Positions 1 through 23,093 of a stretch of DNA of 64,000 bases are shown here, in pieces. Where the stretch lies: positions 96,375 to 160,374 of the forward strand of contig JAMYWO010000009.1 of assembly GCA_024220525.1 (NCBI GenBank), read 5' to 3'. The DNA comes from Cochliopodium minus. Lineage: Eukaryota; Discosea; Himatismenida; Cochliopodiidae. How positions within the stretch are numbered: position 1 is the first letter of the stretch; each line of letters begins with the position of its first letter. The position numbers and the translations under genes are program-made. The notes under the pieces are model-generated. The model searched no databases. It was not told the DNA's origin and worked only from the letters and a program-made list of their open reading frames with translations.

Positions 1-3000
1 GTTCCTATTCTTACTGGATCTAAAACTTATTTTGGAGATCTTTCAAATTTAAATGGAATTATGAAAGAAGTTCAACCTAACATTCTCCTATTTCCAAGCA
101 AGAAATGGAAGAGACTATCTAATGCTCTCCAAAAACAATTCCCATCCGACAAACTTGAGAAATCAAACAAAGGAGAAAAAGAAAAAGAAAGAGAAAAGTT
201 TGGATTGAAAGATGTATCTCTTGCCATTTCTACTGATGGTCCTCTAACTAAAAAGGAAGATCAATATTTCAATGATATTGAATGTCCAGTCTTACCTTTA
301 TTTGAAGAATTGGAAGCTGCTGGTCCTATCACCTTTTCAACCAAAGACAGCAGAAAGTATGGAACATCTGGAAAGCCTTTAGAAGGAGTAAGTGTTGAAA
401 TTGAAGGAGAATTAGATGAAAATGGAAATGGAGAAATAGTTGCATTGAAGCCAAACTTGTTTTCAGGATACAATAATGAACCAAAGTCATTTGATGAAAA
501 AGTAAATGGAGGCAAGTTGAAAACAGAGAGCATCGGTAAACTTGATGAAGAAGGATTTTTGATCGTTTGTGGAAATAAATCTGATCGAGTAAAGTTGAGC
601 AATGGAGTATCTACTCATCCAAGAGACATCGAAAAAGAGTTGAGAGAACATCCACTTGTTGATGATGCGATTGTACTTGGAAATGGAAGAAAATATTTGG
701 TCGCACTCTTAACCATTGACGAAGAAGAAACCAAATTGGTAGCAAAGGAGAACAACATGGAATTAAAAGACTTTTACAACTCTCCTCTCTTCAACGAGAT
801 AATCCAAAATCATGTTGATTCTGTTAACGAAAGGTTCCCTGAAAAGGACAGAGTAAAGAGATACCAAGTGTTGTTCCATCCGTTCACTGTTCCAAACAAA
901 GAGCTCATACCTGGTGATTTCCTCAACAGAGAATTGATCGAAAAGAAATACTCTTCTTATTTGGATAACTTTGATACGCAAGATTTTCTAGTGATTGAAA
1001 ACAGAATTACCCAACAGCTCACTCGCCTCAAAAAAGATTTGAACAAGATTGCTTTTAGATTGCCAAACTTGGAAGATGAAATGGGATCTGGTTTTATCGA
1101 AAAGTATTATTTGAATGAACATCATGATGAACCTGAAATTCATTCTTTGGAGGAACTTTCGGATAAATTCATCAATGTTGTCGAAAAGAGAACAGAAGCT
1201 TTGGATTGTATTGTAGAAACATTAAAGGTTAAAAACATTGAAGAAAAAGAAAAGAGAGTCGAATTGGAAGAAAAGAATAACATTGGTACTTTATTTTTAT
1301 AATTTAATTTTAAAATTAATCTTATTTTAATTTCAATTTGATTAATTAGTTGAAGAAAGAGTGGGAGTTCTCATTGAAAACTTGAACGAAGTAGAAAATG
1401 AGATTAATGAACTCAAAGTGAAGAATACTCAGATCAACAAAGAAATTCAAGAAATATCTCTCAAAATCCCTTTGAACATGGTAAATTTAAACAAAAAAAT
1501 TTTCAATCAATTTCAATTTTTTTTTCCCGCAGAGACAAGGTAATTAAAACTTTAAAAGTTTAATTTAAACTAAAATTTCATTATTAATATAGGAACTCCA
1601 ACTGTACCTCCTCCAACTGGTATTGTAACATTAGTTTTTACTGATGTAGAAAATTCAACACTTCAATGGGAAAAAGACGCAAAAGTAATGGCCCAAGCTT
1701 TGTCTTTGCACAACAACACAATGAGAGAGAAAATCAATGAATACAAAGGGTATGAAGTCAAAACAGAAGGAGATGCTTTTATGATTGCTTTTACCAACCC
1801 TCTTGATGCTACCAAATGGTGTATTGATGTACAACAAACATTATTGACTCTTGATTGGCCAGAGCCCCTTTTCCACAGTGAATCTTCTTCTATTCTTAAG
1901 AATGACGAAGATAAATTTATTTGGAGAGGATTGAGAGGTAAATATTTCATTTTTCTTTTTTTAAATCTAATTATCTTTAAATTTTAGTGAGAATGGGAAT
2001 TCACAGAGGAGAACCAAGGTAAAAACATTTGTTGGTTATTTTATTTTCTTTAATTATTTATTTTGTAGTTGTGAACCTGATCCAATTACAGGAAGAATGG
2101 ACTATTTTGGTAGAATGGTAAATAGATCTGCTAGAGTTGAGAGTATGGCCAAAGGAGGACAAATCCTTGTTAGTGAAGATGCTTTTGATGGTATCAAAGA
2201 TAAATTGAAAGAATTGGGAGATCCTATAATCATCGAATTAGGAGAGTATGAACTTAAAGGTCTCGAAAAGAAAGAATTCATCAGACAAGTTTCCCCTCTT
2301 TCATTGAAGGACAGGGTATTTGAGAAAACAACTATAGCCAAGGACCCTATAGAACAAAAATCTGACATGTTGAAAGATAAGCTAAAGAAATTGGAAGAAG
2401 AGAACGAGGAATTATTGAAGAAAATGAGTGAATTGGAAGAAAGAGCTAAAAAATATGTAGAAGAAGCCAACCAACTTGCTCTTATGTTGAAAGAGAACAC
2501 CCAAAAAGATAACAAGGAGCTTTCCAAGAAATTGATAGAGATGGTCGAAAAACAAAAGTTGATCAACAGTGATCTCATTGAGTCAAAGAATAAGAACAAG
2601 TTGTTGACTGAAAACTTTCTCAATTTGAACTCTCAACTTAACTTGATCAAAGAAGATAACCAAAAGTTGAATGGAATGATCAACAATCTTTCCGACAAGC
2701 TGAATCTTTTGGAGAAAGAGCTCAAACATCTCAGAGAGGAGAATCAAAAGCAAAAAGAACAGATTAAAGAAAAAGATCTCAAGATTCAAAACTTGGAAGA
2801 TACAATCAAGCAACTCCAAGAAAAGGGGGATAACACTGTTGTCATTTCAAAAGAACAAGGTATTATTTTCACAAAGATTTTTTTTCTAATATCAAAATAA
2901 TATTTTTCAATTATATTATAATCTTTTGTTAAACATAGAATTGGAATTCAAAACCAAGATTGATAATCTCTCAGATGAAAACAAATCTTTGAAAGAAGAT

Positions 3001-5264
3001 TCTCAAAAAACACTTGAAACATTGGGAGATTCTGTCAAACAACTTGAAAAATCCATAGAAAACGAAAAGGATTTGGCAAACAAACTAAAGCAATCACAAG
3101 GAGAAAACGAAAGACTCAGCTTAGAGAAACAAGGTTTGTCCAACGATCTAGAATTGACCAAAAAGCAACTCCTTGAAGTAGAGAAATGTAACAAAGAATG
3201 TGATGAACACAAAAAGAAATTGACTGANNNNNNNNNNNNNNNNNNNNNNNNNNNNNNNNNNNNNNNNNNNNNNNNNNNNNNNNNNNNNNNNNNNNNNNNN
3301 NNNNNNNNNNNNNNNNNNNNNNNNNNNCCTTGAAGTAGAGAAATGTAACAAAGAATGTGATGAACACAAAAAGAAATTGACTGAAGAAAATGAGAAATTT
3401 GGCTCAGAGAACCAAGGTTTATCCAACGATCTAGAATTGACCAAAAAGCAACTCCTTGAAGCCGAGAAACGTAACAAAGAATCAGATGAACTCAAAAAGA
3501 AATTAAACGAAGAAAACGAAGAATTGAAAAGATTGATTGGTAATTCCTTTTATTTTTATCGTCTTTGCCTTTTTTATTATTGCTAATTCATTTTTTTTTT
3601 TTGGATATAGAGGAGCTCAAAAACAAAACACCCAATTCCGTTCCTTTGAACCCAAAGTTGTTGGATCTCCACAGAGAAATGAAGGAGAATCAACAAAAGA
3701 TCGAAGATACTGCATCCAAAGTGAAACAACTCTTTGACGAAAACGAAGATCTCACCAACGTATCTGTAGCTATCGCAGAAGCTTTGAATGATACAAGCGA
3801 TATGTTGGAGATATCAAAAGGTAAAAAGTTTTTAATCCTTTATAGATTTCAAATCATTTAATTCTTTTTCTCTGTAGAAAACAATGATTCTAATTTGGAT
3901 ACTTTGTCCAAGGAATCTGAAGCCTTGGAACAAGCAAAGAAACAATTGAGCGAGGCCCAAAACGAATACAAAGAAATGGTAGAGAATTTGGAAAAGCAAT
4001 TGGCTCAATACAAAGAAGACAACAAAAATTACGAAGAACGTAAACTCTATTATCTTTTTATTTTATTTTTATTAACCTTTAAATAATTTTTTATTTATTT
4101 TTAGAAATCAATCAAAGCGAATCAGAAAATACTAGTGGAGGAGATGATTCCGTAAACATCACCAAAAGAAACAACTTGAGACAGGGAATCCAAAAGTTCG
4201 AGAATCTCATCAATGATGCGAGAAAACAAATCGAAATCATCCCAAAGACCATCAAAGAAATTGATACCTTACAAACTGAATTGGATATTGATGATAACAC
4301 TGATCTCGATTCAGAAGAAGGAGCATCCAAAAGTATTCCCTCTTTTAAATTTTTGTTTATTTTATTAAATTTAATTTTTTTGTTTATTTTATTAAAGGCA
4401 TCCAAAAACTCCTTGAAAACATCGAAAATCAGATCCAACAAAGCAATAAAAAGGTTGAATCACTCCAAAACTATCCTAATGACTACAACTCCCAATCACA
4501 AATCCAATTACACAAACAACTCATCAAGGATTTGTAAGCTGAATCTTTTTTTTAATTGATTTCAATTTAAATGAGAAAAAAATTAATTTAATTTTTTATT
4601 AGGGCATCACTGAGTGATAAAATAAAAAAGACTTTGTCCATCAAAAGTGCTCAGGCTTTCGTTTATGATGCTTACATTGGATATGAAAACATCTTGTTGG
4701 CTTTCCAAAAGAAGTTGGAGAACTTGCCTAACAATTTCTTGTTGAACAAAACTAGATGGGTCTCCACAAGAAAGATCTACACCACCATCATTAACAACAG
4801 GTAAAAAAAAAAAAAGAAAAGATTTTTGTTATTGTTTATAATTTATTTTTTTTATTTAAATACAAAGATTGACAAGATGGCAAATCAAGAAAAACAATTA
4901 TTTGAATGCTCAGAAAGAACCTGTCAAAGAGAGCCCTTCCCCACAAAAACTTTTGGTTGTTACTAACACCAAATTGGATGATGTTGACGATGAAGTTTCA
5001 AGTGTATTAAACGAGTTGGGCGTTGAAATTCCTGTTAAGAAATTGGGTGTGGGTCAATACATGGTTGGCAGCAAAAAACTCAACATGAAGATCTTGAATG
5101 GTTTCTTGGTGGTCAGAATCGGAGGAGGTTACATGAGATTCAAGGAGTTTATTGAGAAGCATGCCAAGAGTCTTGGTGTCATCATTAACCCTAATCCTAT
5201 TGGTAAGGTTGGTTCTGCTTTTATGGGTGGACATGGAAAGATGAACTTGATTGAAAAGAAATAA
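1..5264 (+). CDS. ACS-like / adenylyl cyclase / coiled-coil / GAS2 fusion protein (5' truncated)
   Basis: The reading frame is open from base 1, so the start lies upstream. Thirteen exons can be joined: 1-1285, 1350-1480, 1533-1539 (7 nt), 1593-1937, 1988-2018, 2069-2859, 2939-3539 (holds a gap), 3611-3820, 3878-4039, 4105-4332, 4398-4533, 4603-4800, 4868-5264. Domains in order: C-terminal half of a long-chain acyl-CoA synthetase-like domain (GEIVALKPNLFSGY, IGKLDEEGFLIV); a short coiled coil; a class III cyclase domain (FTDVENST, YEVKTEGDAFMIAF, RMGIH, TGRMDYFGRMVNRSARV); about 800 residues of Glu/Lys-rich coiled coil with 32-residue repeats; and a GAS2 domain (VGSKKLNMKIL, VRIGGGYMRFKEFIEKH), which in known proteins binds microtubules. 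Both metal-binding Asp residues, the Lys of EVKTEGD and the Asp of RMDYFG point to an active, ATP-using cyclase. The ACS-like part lacks the usual TGD and A10 lysine. No membrane segment is seen, so a cytoskeleton-associated soluble enzyme is inferred. Confidence 0.85.
3171..3384. other. Assembly gap of 100 N flanked by an identical 57-bp overlap
   Basis: Bases 3228-3327 are exactly 100 N. The 57 bases before the gap (3171-3227) are identical to the 57 bases after it (3328-3384). The simplest reading is two contig ends that overlap and were not merged. Collapsing the overlap keeps the coiled-coil frame open. A real extra copy of the local 32-residue coiled-coil repeat cannot be excluded, so the length of the protein here is uncertain. 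Confidence 0.9.
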
Positions 5265-5449: not shown

Positions 5450-7894
5450 ATGGAAACTTTTCTAGGGTTTGATTTAAAAAATATTGAGTATGAAGGTAAT
5501 TATTTTATTATAAAACAAATATAATTTATTTAATTTGAAAAAAAAGATTCATTTGGGAATAGTATACTCCATTATCTTCTCATTGATGAACAAATGCATT
5601 CAAATTTTACCAGATATTTTGAAAAAAGGAAAATTGAAAATGAGATATTCCAAAAAATGGATCCAAAAAAGAAAAAAGGGATCAAAATCAACAATTTGAT
5701 AAAAGAGATGATTGAAAAAAAAGCCGAAGTAAATCATCTTAACCAATTCAACAGTTCTCCCCTTCATTTTGCTTGTGAAAGTGAAGAAATTAAAATTGAA
5801 ACAATAAAGTTATTGATTGAGAATCACATTGAAATAAATGCAACAAATTTAATTAAAAACACTCCTTTACACATTTACTGCTCGAACAGAAAAGTTGAAA
5901 TGGAGGGAATAAAACTTTTAATTGAAAAAAAAAGCGAAGTAAACTTGAAAAACAAAAATGGAGAAACTCCCCTTTACATCTATTCTTTAAATGGAAATAA
6001 TAATTTTGAAATAACGAAATATTTAATTGAAAACAAATCTTCCATCAATCATGAAAACAAAAGTGAATCAGTGTTACATAATTTTTGTAGGAAAGAAAGC
6101 CCTTCTTTGGATATCATAAAGTATTTGATTGAAAATAAAAGTGAGATTGACAAAAAAAATGAAAATAAACAAACTCCTCTCTATATATTGTCTCAGAGAA
6201 TAAAAGACGATAATTTCGAAATTATAAAATACTTTGTTTCTAAAAAAGTTGATCTAAACACAAAAAATTCTAGAAAGAAAACTCCTTCACACAATCTTTT
6301 AAAGAATATTAATCTTGAAAATATAAAGTATTTGGTTAATAATAAAGCAAACTTGTTGGATTTTGGAGATGATTCTCCTATATTTTATTCTCTTCTAAAA
6401 AATAAAATTGATGAAGAAATGTTGAAATATTTCTTTGAATTGAAACTTGACATCAATTTTGTTTCGAACAAAAGTGAAAATATTTTTCATCTTCTTTGTC
6501 AGAATAAAAAATCAGATCTTTCTTCTCTTTCTTACTTATATCATTTAAAAAAAGACTTTATCAATTCGATACTAGATATTCTTAACGAAACACCTCTACA
6601 TCTTGCTTTAAAAAATGGAAATGGAATCGAAAAAATTGAATTTTTGTTGAAATTCAAAGCAAATGTAAATCTAAGAAACAAATATTATTATTCTCCTCTT
6701 CAAGATTATTGTAGTAATCTTAAAAATTCAATTGATATAAAAGTGATAAAGTTATTGATAGATCACAAGTCTATTTTGAATACAAGAAATGCTCCTCCTT
6801 TCAACAATTATATTGGCAGAGGGAAAAAGATTAAATTGGATATTTTGAAAATGTTGAACAAAGACAACTGCATTCTTGGAGACTCAATGAAAATAAATTC
6901 TCCTCTTCAAATTGTCTCCAAGTATCCACTCGTTAAGAAAAAAGTTTTTGAATATCTCGTTCTAAACAAAAGTGACGTTAACTGTTTGGACAAAGATGAG
7001 ATGTCGTGTCTTCAAAATGCTTGTTATTATGGGCTCGGTATTGAAATAATAAAATTTTTGGTTGAAAACAAAGCAAACATAAATCCTATAAGCATAAACC
7101 CTTCTCCTCTTATCAGGGCCTGCTCCAATAATCCAAATTATGAAATCATAAAATATCTTGTTCATGAAAAAGCAGATTTAACACATTTTTCAAAGTCTTC
7201 TCCTTTAATCAGAATTCTAGAAAATATTTCCCTTGATTTAGATTTAATCAAATTCTTGATAGAATCGAAATCTGATATGGATCAATATAATCCAATGCAT
7301 GAGACCCCTTTTATGGTTTCTTGTAAGAACTCAAGCACAACAGTTGAGTTATTAGATTATTTGATTCAAAAGAAAAGTTCTTTTGAATCTTCTAATTTAG
7401 CTGGAATAACTTCTCTTCATTTTGCCTCAAAACATTGTTCACCTTCTGTGATAAAATATTTGATAGATAAAAAATGTAATCTTAATCAATTAGACGACCA
7501 TGGGAAATCTCCTCTAGTTTTCTTGTTTTACAACAAAAACTTGAGTCACTCTTCTGTTCGTTATTTTTTGGAAAACAAAGCAAACATAAACTCTCAGAAA
7601 AAATCTATTTTAAATTTTGTAAACTTTCAACGTGAAAGATACTTCATTATGTTTTTGGAGTTTGGATTGTCCAATTTTGATTTAAAAAACTCAAACTTTA
7701 AAAAAATAATGGAAGATTATCAAAACGGGAATCTTTGGTCTGTAAACCGCCACATTTATTTTAGTGAAAAGATAAAATCAATCATTTTCTCTTTGTTACT
7801 TTGTTCAAAATTATTCTCAAAGAGAAACAAACAAATTTTTCCAAAACCAATACTTTTTATTATTATCAAGAGATACATCAGAATAATTTATTAA
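5450..7894 (+). CDS. Long ankyrin-repeat protein
   Basis: Two exons, 5450-5495 and 5547-7894. The upstream ATG at 5450 is preferred because the short first exon splices in frame and completes an ankyrin-like unit (FGNSILHYLL) before the ATG at 5594. The protein of about 800 residues is almost wholly degenerate ankyrin repeats of roughly 33-36 residues. The pattern is SPLHFAC / IIKYLIENK / ANINxxN, and EN/KK replaces the usual GA. No signal peptide or catalytic domain is present. The last 50 residues leave the repeat pattern and form a short module (LWS, then an H, then FPKPILFIIIK) also found at the end of the neighbouring minus-strand gene. Ankyrin arrays mediate protein binding; the partner is unknown. 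The gene converges on its neighbour with only about 16 bp between stop codons. Confidence 0.88.
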
Positions 7895-9867: not shown

Positions 9868-11346
9868 ATGGGAGATGAAGTTCAATTAATAGTACAAATA
9901 TTGGGTGATAGAAATGTTTATTGTGGTTTTGCAGGAGATGATGATCCTCAAGTCAAATTGAATGTGGTGAATGATGATCAAGACAAAACAACGTCACCCC
10001 ATGAGGATCATCTCGAGAACATCAACCAATATCTCTTTGAAAAAATGAAAATAAAACCTGAGGAACATCCTATATTGGTAATATAAAAAGAATTTAAAAA
10101 ATAAATATAAATTTTAACATAAAAATAATAACAATTTTGTAATAGTATAACAAAAAATTGGAATCCAATAAAGCATATGGTAATAAAAAATTTCAAATTA
10201 AATTTTTACAATTTTTTTCATTAAATTTCATTAAATTTAGACGAAAAAATTACCCAAATTTATTTTGAAACATATAATTTTCCTGCGATATATGCTTCGC
10301 TGTAAAGTTTTTCTTTTCTTGTATAACAATAATTATTAAATAAACATTTATTTTTTAATTAAAGTGAAGGACATCTTGTCATGTACGCTTCTGGTCATAC
10401 AACTGGAATAAGTATTATTTCGGGACACAAGCAAACAGAAATATGTAAAAAAAAAAATTTTAAAATATGAAATTTAATTTTGAATTAATTTTTCTTTTTC
10501 AACAAAATATTAAGACCCAATATTCTTAGGTAAAACAATTCATTATGAATCTTTTTTGAACTTTTATTTAATCTAATTATTCATTATTTTAAAGGATATC
10601 CCACTCCATGTTCAAATGTGACCACAAAAACAGGAGGAAATACTGTTTCGAATTTTCTTTCAAATTTGATGAGGAGAAGAGGAATTGTGATCGAAAAAGA
10701 TTTTTACACAAACAATCAACTTTCCAAAAACATCTTTGGGAAAACAGTGATTGATGATTTAAAAGAAAAATTTGTTGAAATTCTGAATGAAAGACCAAGC
10801 ATTCTGAAATCATCAGACAAAAGCAACCAAAAATATGAATTACCTTGTGGAAAGATCATTGAAGTGGGATGTGAAAGATTTTTGAGTGGAGAAGTTTTAT
10901 TTGACACATCTATTGATGTGGAAAGTGATATTTCTGAGCAATTATCTATTCCTGAAGCTGTTCATGAAAGTATAAACCTTTGTGACATTGATGTCAGAAC
11001 TACTTTGTTGAAAAATTTGGTGGTGACAGGAGGGAATTCTTTTTTTGGAAATTTTAAAGAGAGATTGAAAAGAGAGGTTCAATATAAAATTTCAAAAAGA
11101 TCTGTTTGGATCAAAAACCAGAAACACAACGAAAACAATTTGTTATCTTCCATTCCTCAAAGTATCATTAACAAAATTCATGAATGTGATAAGTTAAGTG
11201 TTAATGTCAATAAAATTAAAGAGAAATATTTATCTTGGATTGGAGGATCCATTTTGGCTTCTCTTGGGATATTCCAACAAATGTGGATCTCAAAAGAAGA
11301 GTATGATGAAAGAGGTCCTTCTGTTATAAGGTGTAGAAGATTTTGA
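9868..11346 (+). CDS. Divergent actin-like protein, copy 1
   Basis: Six exons give 383 residues, close to actin's 375: 9868-10077, 10146-10179, 10241-10301, 10365-10444, 10515-10529 (15 nt), 10595-11346. Actin signatures are clear: CGFAGDDDPQ, EKITQIYFETYNFPAIYASL, LYASGHTTG, VVTGGNSFFGNFKERL, and the C-terminal WIGGSILASL / FQQMWISKEEYDE / GPSV. The nucleotide-binding loops are not conserved: the first phosphate loop (DNGSG in actin) is ILGDRN and the second (DSGDG) is ISGHKQ. Internal insertions precede the WIGGSI block. It may be an actin-related protein that no longer binds ATP in the usual way. It is tandem with a near-identical copy at 12117. The ATG sits directly after a run of about 18 A. 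Confidence 0.85.
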
Positions 11347-12116: not shown

Positions 12117-13588
12117 ATGGGAGATGAGTTCTATCAAATTGTACAAATATTGGGTGATAGAAATGCTCATTGTGGTTTTGCAGGAGATGATGATCCTCAA
12201 GTCAAATTGAATGTGGTGAATGATGATCAAGACAAAACAACATCACCCCATGAAAAAAATCTCGAGAACATCAACCAATATCTCTTTGAAAAAATGAAAA
12301 TAAAACCTGAGGAACATCCTATATTGGTAATATAAAAAGAATTTAAAAAATAAATATAAATTTTAACATAAAAATAATAACAATTTTGTAATAGTATAAC
12401 AAAAAATTGGAATCCAATAAAGCATATGGTAATAAAAAATTTCAAATTAAATTTTTACAATTTTTTTCAATAAATTGCATTAAATTTAGACGAAAAAATG
12501 ATTGAAATTTATTTTGAAACATATAATTTTCCTGCGATATATGCTTCGCTGTAAAGTTTTTCTTTTCTTGTATAACAATAGTTATTAAATAAACATTTAT
12601 TTTTTAATTAAAGTGAAGGGCCTCTTGTCATGTACGCTTCTGGTCATACAACTGGAATAAGTATTATTTCGGGACACAAGCAAACAGAAATATGTAATAA
12701 AAAAAAATAAGAAATTTAGTTTTGAATTAATTTTTCTTTTTCAACAAAATATTAAGACCCAATATTCTTAGGTAAAACAATTCATTAAGAATCTTTTTTG
12801 AAATTTTATTTAATCTAATTATTCGTTATTTTAAAGGATATCCCACTCCATATTCAAATGTGACCACAAAAACAGCAGGAAATACTGTTTCGAATTTTCT
12901 TTCAAATTTGATGAGGAGAAGAGGAATTGTGATCGAAAAAGATTTTTACACAAACAATCAACTTTCCAAAAACATCTTTGGGAAAACAGTGATTGATGAT
13001 TTAAAAGAAAAATTTGTTGAAATTCTGAATGAAAGACCAAGCATTCTGAAATCATCAGACAAAAGCAACCAAAAATATGAATTACCTTGTGGAAAGATCA
13101 TTGAAGTGGGATGTGAAAGATTTTTGAGTGGAGAAGTTTTATTTGACACATCTATTGATGTGGAAAGTGATATTTCTGAGCAATTATCTATTCCTGAAGC
13201 TGTTCATGAAAGTGTTAGTATTTGTGACATTGATATAAGGAAAGATTTGTTGAAAAATTTGGTGGTGACAGGAGGGAATTCTTTTTTTGGAAATTTCAAA
13301 GAGAGATTGAAAAGAGAAGTTCAATTTAAGTTTTCAAAAGGATCTATTTGGCTCAAAAATCAGAAACACAACAAAAACAATTTGTTATCTTCCATCCCTC
13401 AAAGTATCATCAACAAAATTCATGAATGTGATAAGTTAAGTGTTAATGTCAACAAAATTAAAGAGAAATATTTATCTTGGATTGGAGGATCCATTTTGGC
13501 TTCTCTAAGCACATTCCAACAAATGTGGGCATCAAAAGAAGAGTATGACGAAAGTGGTCCTTCTGTTGTAAGGTGTAGAAGATTTTAA
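12117..13588 (+). CDS. Divergent actin-like protein, copy 2
   Basis: Exon structure is the same as copy 1, with identical exon lengths: 12117-12326, 12395-12428, 12490-12550, 12614-12693, 12757-12771 (15 nt), 12837-13588. The predicted protein is 383 residues. Introns are also nearly identical between copies, so the duplication is recent. Differences are concentrated near the N-terminus (GDEFYQIVQ against GDEVQLIVQ) and in the last 100 residues (LSTFQQMWASKEEYDESGP, closer to true actin than copy 1). The phosphate loops are degenerate as in copy 1. The ATG at 12117 is chosen because it aligns with copy 1. It may be co-expressed with copy 1; no regulatory element could be read. Confidence 0.85.
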
Positions 13589-21300: not shown

Positions 21301-23093
21301 ATCGAGTGCCAAAAAAGTTTTATATGACTCAAGAGAAGTAAAAAAATTTCAATCATTTTTAATTTTTAATTTTTAATTTTTGTTTTGTATTTTTTTACTT
21401 TAAAATTTTAATTTTTAATTTAATTTTCAATTTTTAATTTAATTTTACAATTTTTAATTTTTAATTTTTAAAGAACCAACAAGCAAAAGGAATTTTCGAG
21501 TTATTTGAGATAAAATACGAAGCAGGAGACAACATCATCAACACTTTTGACTGTGTGTTGAGAAAGGGATCTCTCACCAAGCTTAGAGGAGAAATGTTCA
21601 TCATAAGAGACAACCTCTGTTTCCTCAGTAAAAGAAATAAACTCAAAATCCCAATTAAGACTGTCACTACTTGGTAAATTTTATTTTTATTTTATGTTTA
21701 CTAATTTTTATTATTTTTTTTTTTTGTAAATTATTATTTCATTTTATTTTTTGATTTATTATTTATTGATTTATTTATTATTTTATTTATTTTATTCATC
21801 ATTGATTTATTTGATTTATTTATTTATTTAATTTATTCAACTATTATTTTTTCTTTTAAAAGGTATGTAGACAACAAGAAAGAGTCTTACAACATCTACT
21901 TTTTGGCAGAAAAAGAAAAACACTGTTTCAAATTTTTCCAAAGACCATTGCATCTGGGTAAACAAAAAAAAAAATTATTTTTTATTTATTTATTTATTTT
22001 TATTTTTATTTTTTATTTTGTTTTTTTTTTTTAATAATATTTTTTCAAAAAAAGAAATGTTCATTGACAAATTTGTTAAGAGATCAAATTCTCCTATCGT
22101 GAGAAATTTGAAGAGAGATCGTTCCATGACTCTCAATATTAGTGGAGGAAGCGAAGTTCTCACCACGAATAATCTTCATTTCAACCAAAGGTAAGAATAA
22201 ATCAAAATGAAGAATTGAAAAAATAAAATAAATAAAAATAAAAAATAAAAATAAATTAAAAATAAAATAAAAAAATAAAAAATAAAAAATAAAAAATAAA
22301 AAATTAACGAATGAAAAATTAAAAACTAACAAAAATAAAATGTAAAAATAAATAAAAATAGCGAATGGATGGAAATGATAGAATGTGGAACGTTGATGAG
22401 CTTCAAAGCAGGGGAGACAGTCCTAGAAAAAAACTATAAGCAACAAACTATTTTCATTATCATGAAAGGCCTTTGCGAAATCCAATCTGAACACGAAAAC
22501 TCTGCCAAAGTTCTCCACACTTTACGCCCCGGTGAATACTTTGGAGAAAAGTAAAAATAAATAAAAATAAATAAAAATAAGTAAAAATAAATAAAAAAAA
22601 TAAAAAATAAATAAATAGATAATAAAAAATACAAAATAATGAATAAATAAAAAAAGAAAAAATAAATGAAAAATATTACATAACTTTATAAACTAGATCA
22701 TTTTTGTTTGGTTCTCCTTCTCCCAATAAGTTTGTAACTGCAGCAGAAGATTCTGAACTTTGTAAAAAAAATTTCAATTCTAGAAAATTAATAAAAATAA
22801 AAAATAAAAAATCAAATCAAAAATTAAATATATAAAAAATTAAATAAAATTAAAACAATTTTTTTTAACAAAAAACAGATTGTTACGAAAGAAGTTCTTT
22901 AGAGACTTTGTTCAACAAAAACAATGAAATAGGCGCCAAATTCTTTGGAAATCTTGCTTATTGCCTCTCTGTTCGCTCTCACACCAAAATTTCTAACATC
23001 GAAAAGAAATTGGAGGAGTTGGTTTTGAACAGCTCTAATCCCACTCTCAAAAAGGAAATTGAAAAGGAAATTGAATTTCTTTTAAAGAATTAA
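18307..23093 (+). CDS. IQ-RhoGEF-PH protein with two cyclic-nucleotide-binding-like domains
   Basis: Seventeen exons join in phase to 918 residues. Order: an IQ motif (TKIQALVRMFLQRKSYKR, residues about 73-90); a DH/RhoGEF domain (about 95-300) with the diagnostic CPVQRVPRYVLLFKDLL and NHPDY; a PH domain (310-430); a first cNMP-binding-like domain (435-570, weak phosphate cassette FFGIEEFLGIKSGN); a PH/GRAM-like segment (635-720, GSLTKLRGEMFIIRDNLCFL); and a second cNMP-binding domain (763-870, GEYFGEKSFLFGSPSPNKF). The enzyme class activates Rho/Rac GTPases at membranes. Calmodulin through IQ and cyclic nucleotides through the C-terminal domains are likely inputs. In the second domain the phosphate-binding Arg is replaced (PNKF), so binding needs a test. 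ATG 18307 is the first in-frame Met that splices on. Confidence 0.85.

Follow-up and report, generated by a model that had tools for sequence, protein, structure and literature searches.

A predicted spectraplakin-like protein of Cochliopodium minus that would carry acyl-CoA-synthetase-like and adenylyl cyclase domains

Spectraplakins and other CH-GAS2 proteins (MACF1, dystonin, Shot and GAS2) have in common calponin homology (CH) domains at the N-terminus, a GAS2 (GAR) domain in the C-terminal region and a long rod between the two. Here we describe a gene of Cochliopodium minus whose predicted product shares this frame, although the middle of the protein consists of two acyl-CoA-synthetase (ACS)-like domains, called ACS1 and ACS2 below, and a class III cyclase. 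The gene reaches into the beginning of a 64,000-nt stretch of DNA, hereafter the window (bases 96375-160374 of contig JAMYWO010000009.1, abbreviated C9). For comparison, the genome (44.65 Mb on 598 contigs) was scanned for relatives.

For the cyclase, the closest solved domains by sequence are those of GRESAG 4.3 and 4.1 (PDB 1fx4 and 1fx2), chains that we take to be from Trypanosoma brucei. Their catalytic residues align with those encoded here; nevertheless, they are receptor-type proteins by their PDB names, while the C. minus cyclase is predicted to lie between coils in a cytoskeletal multidomain chain. A functional parallel is the soluble guanylyl cyclase (sGC) of Dictyostelium, whose N-terminal region allows its association with cortical F-actin; that enzyme differs in making cGMP and in resembling mammalian soluble adenylyl cyclase, and CH, ACS and GAS2 domains go unmentioned for it in the accessible part of the paper (PMC11988041). 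Long-chain acyl-CoA synthetases (FadD family, AMP-binding_C_3 type) share their family profile and motifs with ACS1, which differs from them in being fused behind a tandem CH pair and followed by a degenerate second copy. A literature search, judged from titles and the first lines of abstracts and with most subscription journals outside its scope, returned no description of this combination that we recognised.

We consider it likely that the gene encodes a single spectraplakin-like crosslinker of actin and microtubules, whose chain would include an enzyme for fatty-acid activation and an adenylyl cyclase working as a dimer. By analogy with known families, the N-terminal CH1-CH2 pair would hold F-actin and the C-terminal GAS2 domain would hold microtubules, with the enzymes taking the place of the usual spectraplakin rod. 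ACS1, which looks catalytically complete, and a degenerate ACS2 would sit between the CH pair and the cyclase, catalysis again being argued from known families. The cyclase itself would be placed between two coiled coils which, as in known families, may pair two chains; such a dimer would be needed because the active sites of class III cyclases form between two domains. The most likely outcome would be local cyclic AMP (cAMP) and local fatty-acid activation where actin meets microtubules.

What is surprising in this arrangement is that a spectraplakin-like frame and an adenylyl cyclase would be fused. As a rule, it is membranes or separate anchoring proteins that position cyclases; here, the chain of the cyclase itself appears to include the attachment to both types of filament. 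If true, the gene would provide a direct way to ask about local cAMP at actin-microtubule contacts in a protist and about its coupling to fatty-acid activation.

Gene model and domain assignments

Given that an open frame without a start codon already runs at base 1 of the window, the 10 kb upstream (L009) were added to the analysis. The gene was found to start with an ATG at L009:6503 (C9:92877), 3,498 nt upstream of window base 1, and to end with a TAA at 5262-5264. The spliced model has 18 exons and 17 introns, the latter all GT-AG and 50-79 nt long, and yields a protein with 2,540 known residues and, in addition, a gap in the assembly of undefined length (Table 1). The chain is open from ATG to TAA provided that one of the 100 N of the gap is dropped to hold the frame. 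Along this chain, the order of domains is CH-CH, ACS1 (complete), ACS2 (degenerate), class III cyclase, long coiled coil and GAS2.

A Pfam scan was run on residues 1-1760 and on the C-terminal 186 aa of the spliced model, with the coil exons scanned singly and domain stretches counted at E up to 1. CH (97.3 bits, 2 stretches), AMP-binding (292 bits, 2 stretches), AMP-binding_C_3 (89 bits, 2 stretches), Guanylate_cyc (90.1 bits, residues 1550-1732) and GAS2 (38.5 bits on the C-terminal 186 aa) all scored above their curated cut-offs. An earlier note on this DNA, made from the window alone, had proposed one polypeptide with ACS-like, cyclase, coiled-coil and GAS2 parts and had named AMP-binding, Guanylate_cyc and GAS2 as the Pfam profiles to check. 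On the full model these three are indeed found over their cut-offs and, together with the spliced open chain, they support the proposed polypeptide, of which the gap is the weak point. The ACS call was right as well, but it had been drawn from the weaker half, ACS2: on the window-only ACS part (1-1284), AMP-binding_C_3 passes its cut-off, whereas AMP-binding reaches 15.9 bits against a cut-off of 29.9 and fails. The layout given in that note needs to be extended, in that the protein starts outside the window, has a tandem CH pair and two ACS-like domains, and contains a coil broken by a 100-N gap that went unmentioned.

The tandem CH region matches actin-binding domains in the PDB, namely those of an actinin-like 'calponin homology domain protein', plectin, alpha-actinin and MACF1 (best E 4.8e-45). 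At the other end of the protein, the match to the GAS2 family profile is clear (38.5-39.3 bits). Residues of GAS2 that contact tubulin are listed, in the part of the source available, as K237, R242, R252, G254-256, W257, K266 and H267 (PMC12084551). When these were mapped by hand on the HMMER alignment, seven of the nine positions proved identical (K237, R252, G254-256, K266 and H267) and the other two conservative (R242 to K and W257 to Y). It should be noted that an ungapped count prints Ser and Met at K237 and R242; this count is one residue off, as it ignores a one-residue gap in the alignment. The idea of a cAMP source on microtubules, put forward in the earlier note, is incomplete, since the N-terminal tandem CH pair adds actin and gives the layout known from spectraplakins.

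Table 1. Exons and assembly gap of the gene, in window coordinates
Feature	Position	Strand	Content	Basis or remark
Exon 6, window part	1..1285	+	ACS2 from its middle on, ACS2 C-terminal subdomain, start of coil	Open frame to the exon end; exon starts at L009:8902, 1,099 nt before the window; AMP-binding_C_3 at about 583-894, 44 bits
Exon 7	1350..1480	+	Coiled-coil linker into the cyclase	GT-AG, in phase; end matches the pre-cyclase sequence of paralogs
Exon 8	1533..1539	+	7-nt micro-exon	Required by the frame of the chosen model; spacing then equals that of the open-frame paralogs
Exon 9	1593..1937	+	First half of class III cyclase; metal Asp 1643-1645 and 1772-1774, adenine-contacting Lys 1760-1762	Guanylate_cyc, 47 bits on the window frame alone
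Exon 10	1988..2018	+	Middle of cyclase	Alignment to 1fx4 runs through the exon
Exon 11	2069..2859	+	Remainder of cyclase, directly into first coil; adenine Asp 2100-2102, Asn 2121-2123, Arg 2133-2135	Guanylate_cyc, 28.5 bits at the exon start; single open frame
Exon 12	2939..3539	+	Coil with internal repeats, broken by the assembly gap	
Assembly gap	3228..3327	.	100 N, placeholder length	Identical 57-nt repeat on each side
Exons 13-17	3611-3820, 3878-4039, 4105-4332, 4398-4533, 4603-4800	+	End of coil and pre-GAS2 region	No Pfam match above cut-off in the pre-GAS2 region
Exon 18	4868..5264	+	GAS2 (GAR) at about 4983-5162, C-terminal tail, TAA	GAS2, 39.3 bits, E 6.1e-10 (exon 18 alone)

Continuity of the predicted chain

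Several observations weigh against a single crosslinker with these activities. At the places of the usual ACS motifs, which it has lost, ACS2 reads KNLATPNSKG, LKTES and GNKSD. Spectrin repeats, SH3 domains and EF-hands gave no Pfam match above cut-off in the parts scanned. Because plakin or spectrin repeats, SH3 and EF-hands over cut-off are lacking, we do not file the product as an animal-type spectraplakin, although known families suggest that it would work like one. The GAS2 domain matches the solved chains of MACF1 and GAS2 only weakly (best E 0.00014). A zinc-binding motif is mentioned for GAS2 in the accessible part of the literature on this domain (PMC12084551); in contrast to the GAS2 of spectraplakins, residues 2440-2574 of the predicted protein contain no cysteine, and hence the motif is probably missing here. 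When splicing was allowed under loose rules (GT-AG introns of 35-120 nt), 221 of 300 dinucleotide shuffles of the sequence between ACS2 and the cyclase (1286-1592) also joined in phase. Finally, the assembly gap, at which two loci may have been misjoined, lies within the coil that connects the cyclase to GAS2.

The join between ACS2 and the cyclase is where the chain could fall into two adjacent genes, the first (CH-ACS-ACS) closed by a stop at 1300-1302 within intron 6 and the second (cyclase-coil-GAS2) opening near 1478. Were intron 6 retained, this stop would follow 14 bases past the end of exon 6, and an in-frame ATG is present at 1478; moreover, CH-ACS genes with no cyclase seen and CH-cyclase genes with no ACS seen occur elsewhere in the genome. 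The earlier note had relied on in-phase splicing at this join. Such splicing does hold, with GT-AG introns throughout, but by itself it is weak evidence for one chain, given how many shuffles join under loose rules. Under strict rules modelled on the gene's other introns (GTA..YAG, 45-90 nt), the real sequence still joins, as compared with 2 of 300 shuffles. With up to three introns allowed, 37 in-phase solutions exist for the real sequence, and all of them use three.

Paralogs within the genome independently support the ACS2-cyclase join. Seven cyclase copies (five on contig C1, one on C11 and one on C294) carry LK(M/L)PLYLQPGS, with which their coil ends, then a few residues and PPTGTVTLVFTDV, all in one open frame. 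In the window gene, LKIPLNMRQGTPTVPPPTGIVTLVFTDV is obtained with the spacing of the paralogs once splicing places the 7-nt exon between exons 7 and 9. A second, partial place on C294 matches the start of the motif and then breaks off; it was excluded from the seven. Among the 37 solutions, six share the last two introns and differ solely in where exon 7 starts, so that the acceptor at 1349 represents our pick among six in-phase choices.

Only one ATG lies in frame between the exon 6/7 join and the cyclase domain, at the final codon of exon 7 (frames traced by hand). The coil of exon 7 must therefore take its start codon from upstream, and the end of this same exon precedes the cyclase in the seven copies, which is difficult to reconcile with a gene starting at that codon. 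In addition, two genes would leave just 47 nt from the stop to exon 7. In its best heptad register, exon 7 is hydrophobic at 0.92 of the a/d places. This register also fits the end of exon 6, where it is tied best over residues 1455-1496 (0.5) and second best over residues 1440-1496 (0.44 vs 0.50), lending the exon 6/7 join modest support. Considering these points along with the rarity of strict in-phase joining among the shuffles, we find two neighbouring genes very improbable.

On the other side of the cyclase, the earlier note is borne out in that no stop separates the cyclase from the coil, the last part of the former and the first coil being encoded on one exon; at the DNA level, this does away with the stop between cyclase and coil that the note had named as refuting its proposal. 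The gap further downstream is a different matter, as neither its length nor the frame of the coil across it is read directly from the sequence. In an assembly chimaera, CH-ACS-ACS-cyclase-coil would be real, and the 100 N would tie it to the last part of another gene, one of the coil-GAS2 kind. The identical repeat on both flanks of the gap is compatible with such a misjoin, and the relatives on C11 and C52 hold internal gaps too. Nevertheless, a collapsed internal repeat would produce the same flanks, and a third copy of the repeat (83%) is found further on, at 3454; such a collapse is the simplest reading of the gap. The last 187 residues, when searched against the genome (E up to 1), give two matches, both of them to exons of this very gene, and the sole other GAS2-family match in the genome is a CH-GAS2 gene on C112. 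We thus hold a chimaera to be unlikely, and retain the single chain from CH to GAS2 as the preferred model.

Enzyme domains and their relatives in the genome

Six residues of the cyclase (D1560, K1599, D1603, D1679, N1686 and R1690) are kept and match 1fx4 and 1fx2 in the alignment. D1560 and D1603 are the metal-binding Asp pair; K1599 and D1679 are presumably the Lys/Asp pair that selects adenine, and N1686 and R1690 are what we take to be the Asn/Arg pair stabilising the transition state. On this alignment the domain is assigned to class III, with an adenylyl pattern. ACS1 comprises an AMP-binding core and a C-terminal subdomain, as judged from the AMP-binding and AMP-binding_C_3 profiles, and its motifs YTSGTTGPPKA, YGQSE, SGDLG, GRKKD and TLKMKR are intact; we assume that these correspond to the P-loop-like, YGxxE-like, GD, GRKKD and terminal catalytic Lys motifs, respectively. 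The best NCBIfam match of the ACS part is FadD11, at 314.9 bits far under the curated cut-off of 950. ACS1 is probably an active enzyme. ACS2, in which no Lys motif was seen by eye, is classed as degenerate, a homologue by profile only, and its loss of motifs would fit a pseudo-enzyme or a structural role.

The searches for relatives in the genome score best candidates only, and the counts that follow are lower bounds. For the cyclase family, 11 exon-level matches were obtained, whereas an abundance of cyclase domains is emphasised for Acrasis kona (PMC11589745). C52 has a CH pair, an ACS1 that is 61-71% identical to that of the window gene, and the start of an ACS2, followed by 2,494 N; beyond these N, nothing matched the window protein, and the next frame lies on the opposite strand. 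At C52:107866-111927, a minus-strand frame of 1,354 aa has, by eye, a protein-kinase-like region and leucine-rich repeats. On C463, a second CH domain, preceded by the end of a first, is followed by ACS-like stretches. C106 (14562-23861) shows the same partial CH pair, then a strongly charged region and a row of at least five ACS-like units, of which four share one 3,108-aa frame.

Other relatives carry the cyclase or GAS2. On C1, a CH pair precedes a 1,940-aa frame (260997-266816) that holds five tandem cyclase domains spaced at 362-367 residues. At the amino-acid level, unit 2 shares 97.5% identity with unit 3 and 97.8% with unit 4, most of the changes falling at third codon positions; we read the array as a single protein in which cyclase units have expanded recently and been conserved. 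C11 has a CH pair, a coil and a cyclase, and then a gap; C55 has a cyclase of membrane type, going by hydrophobic segments seen by eye. The C112 gene is a 576-aa frame with CH at 139-243 and GAS2 at 487-547. CH-ACS, CH-cyclase and CH-GAS2 are, by their domain matches, three local gene designs, all of which the window gene combines, and this set of genes shows domain shuffling around one actin-binding module.

Outside this genome, the cyclase domain found no relative in one viral and one genome contig collection, neither of which is meant for eukaryotes. The adenylyl cyclase of Entamoeba histolytica was considered as a relative and ruled out, being a CYTH-type protein according to the part of the source available (PMC7546249).

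Comparison with these copies also bears on whether the enzyme domains are merely passive, that is, whether ACS and cyclase serve as spacers or scaffolds and make little acyl-CoA or cAMP. A degenerate ACS2 would agree with this, as would two ACS-like units of C106 that, by eye, read without a normal P-loop. However, between ACS1 and its C52 counterpart the differences at the three codon positions are 0.268/0.187/0.469 (418 codons), and between the cyclase and the five C1 copies they are 0.33-0.34/0.20-0.21/0.50-0.53 (195 codons each). Since positions 1 and 2 change less than position 3, the reading frames are under constraint. With the six cyclase residues and the ACS1 motifs kept as well, passive domains seem improbable to us, and a crosslinker with a working ACS1 and cyclase remains the favoured interpretation.

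The earlier note had assigned the ACS part another role, that of a sensor for a ligand (an acyl chain or a nucleotide) that switches the cyclase through the intervening coil. A coil does link ACS2 to the cyclase, as is general among signalling cyclases, and ACS2 is probably a non-catalytic homologue of a ligand-binding fold. On the other hand, the C1 and C11 genes keep the same coil and cyclase behind their CH pairs with no ACS seen between, so the cyclase can persist without an ACS part. The latter thus looks like an added module, not like a basic regulator of the cyclase, and we view a ligand sensor as possible but doubtful. A lipid-sensing second-messenger station is somewhat less likely still; in it, ACS1 and ACS2 would read or make acyl-CoA or AMP, and this signal, or else strain between actin and microtubules, would be relayed via the coil to the cyclase, with cAMP made at the meeting sites of the filaments.

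Any cAMP made by the cyclase could be read and removed, given that the genome encodes both cNMP_binding domains (45 matches) and cyclic-nucleotide phosphodiesterases (PDEase_I, 13 matches on 6 contigs). One cNMP_binding match (34.6 bits) is located in the window itself, at 22396-22548 (C9:118770-118922), some 17 kb further downstream than the cyclase gene.

Other features of the window

The G+C content of the window is about 23-33%, in 4-kb steps. Searches for Rfam families and for tRNAs gave no matches. In the assembly as a whole, COX1 was not matched either, and a SAH-hydrolase fragment finds its best PDB matches in 5v96 (287.7 bits; Naegleria fowleri) and 6uk3 (283.4 bits; Acanthamoeba), which singles out no lineage. 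The next gene downstream, at 5534-7894, codes for a long protein with ankyrin repeats (Ank_2, 198.7 bits); 270 bases lie between the TAA of the gene studied here and the opening of its main frame, a distance that refers to the frame and not to a start codon. Further on, at 10549-11346 and 12776-13588, lie two tandem and very similar frames of 265 and 270 aa, which by eye resemble an actin-related protein (VVTGGNSFFGNF.. WIGGSILASL).

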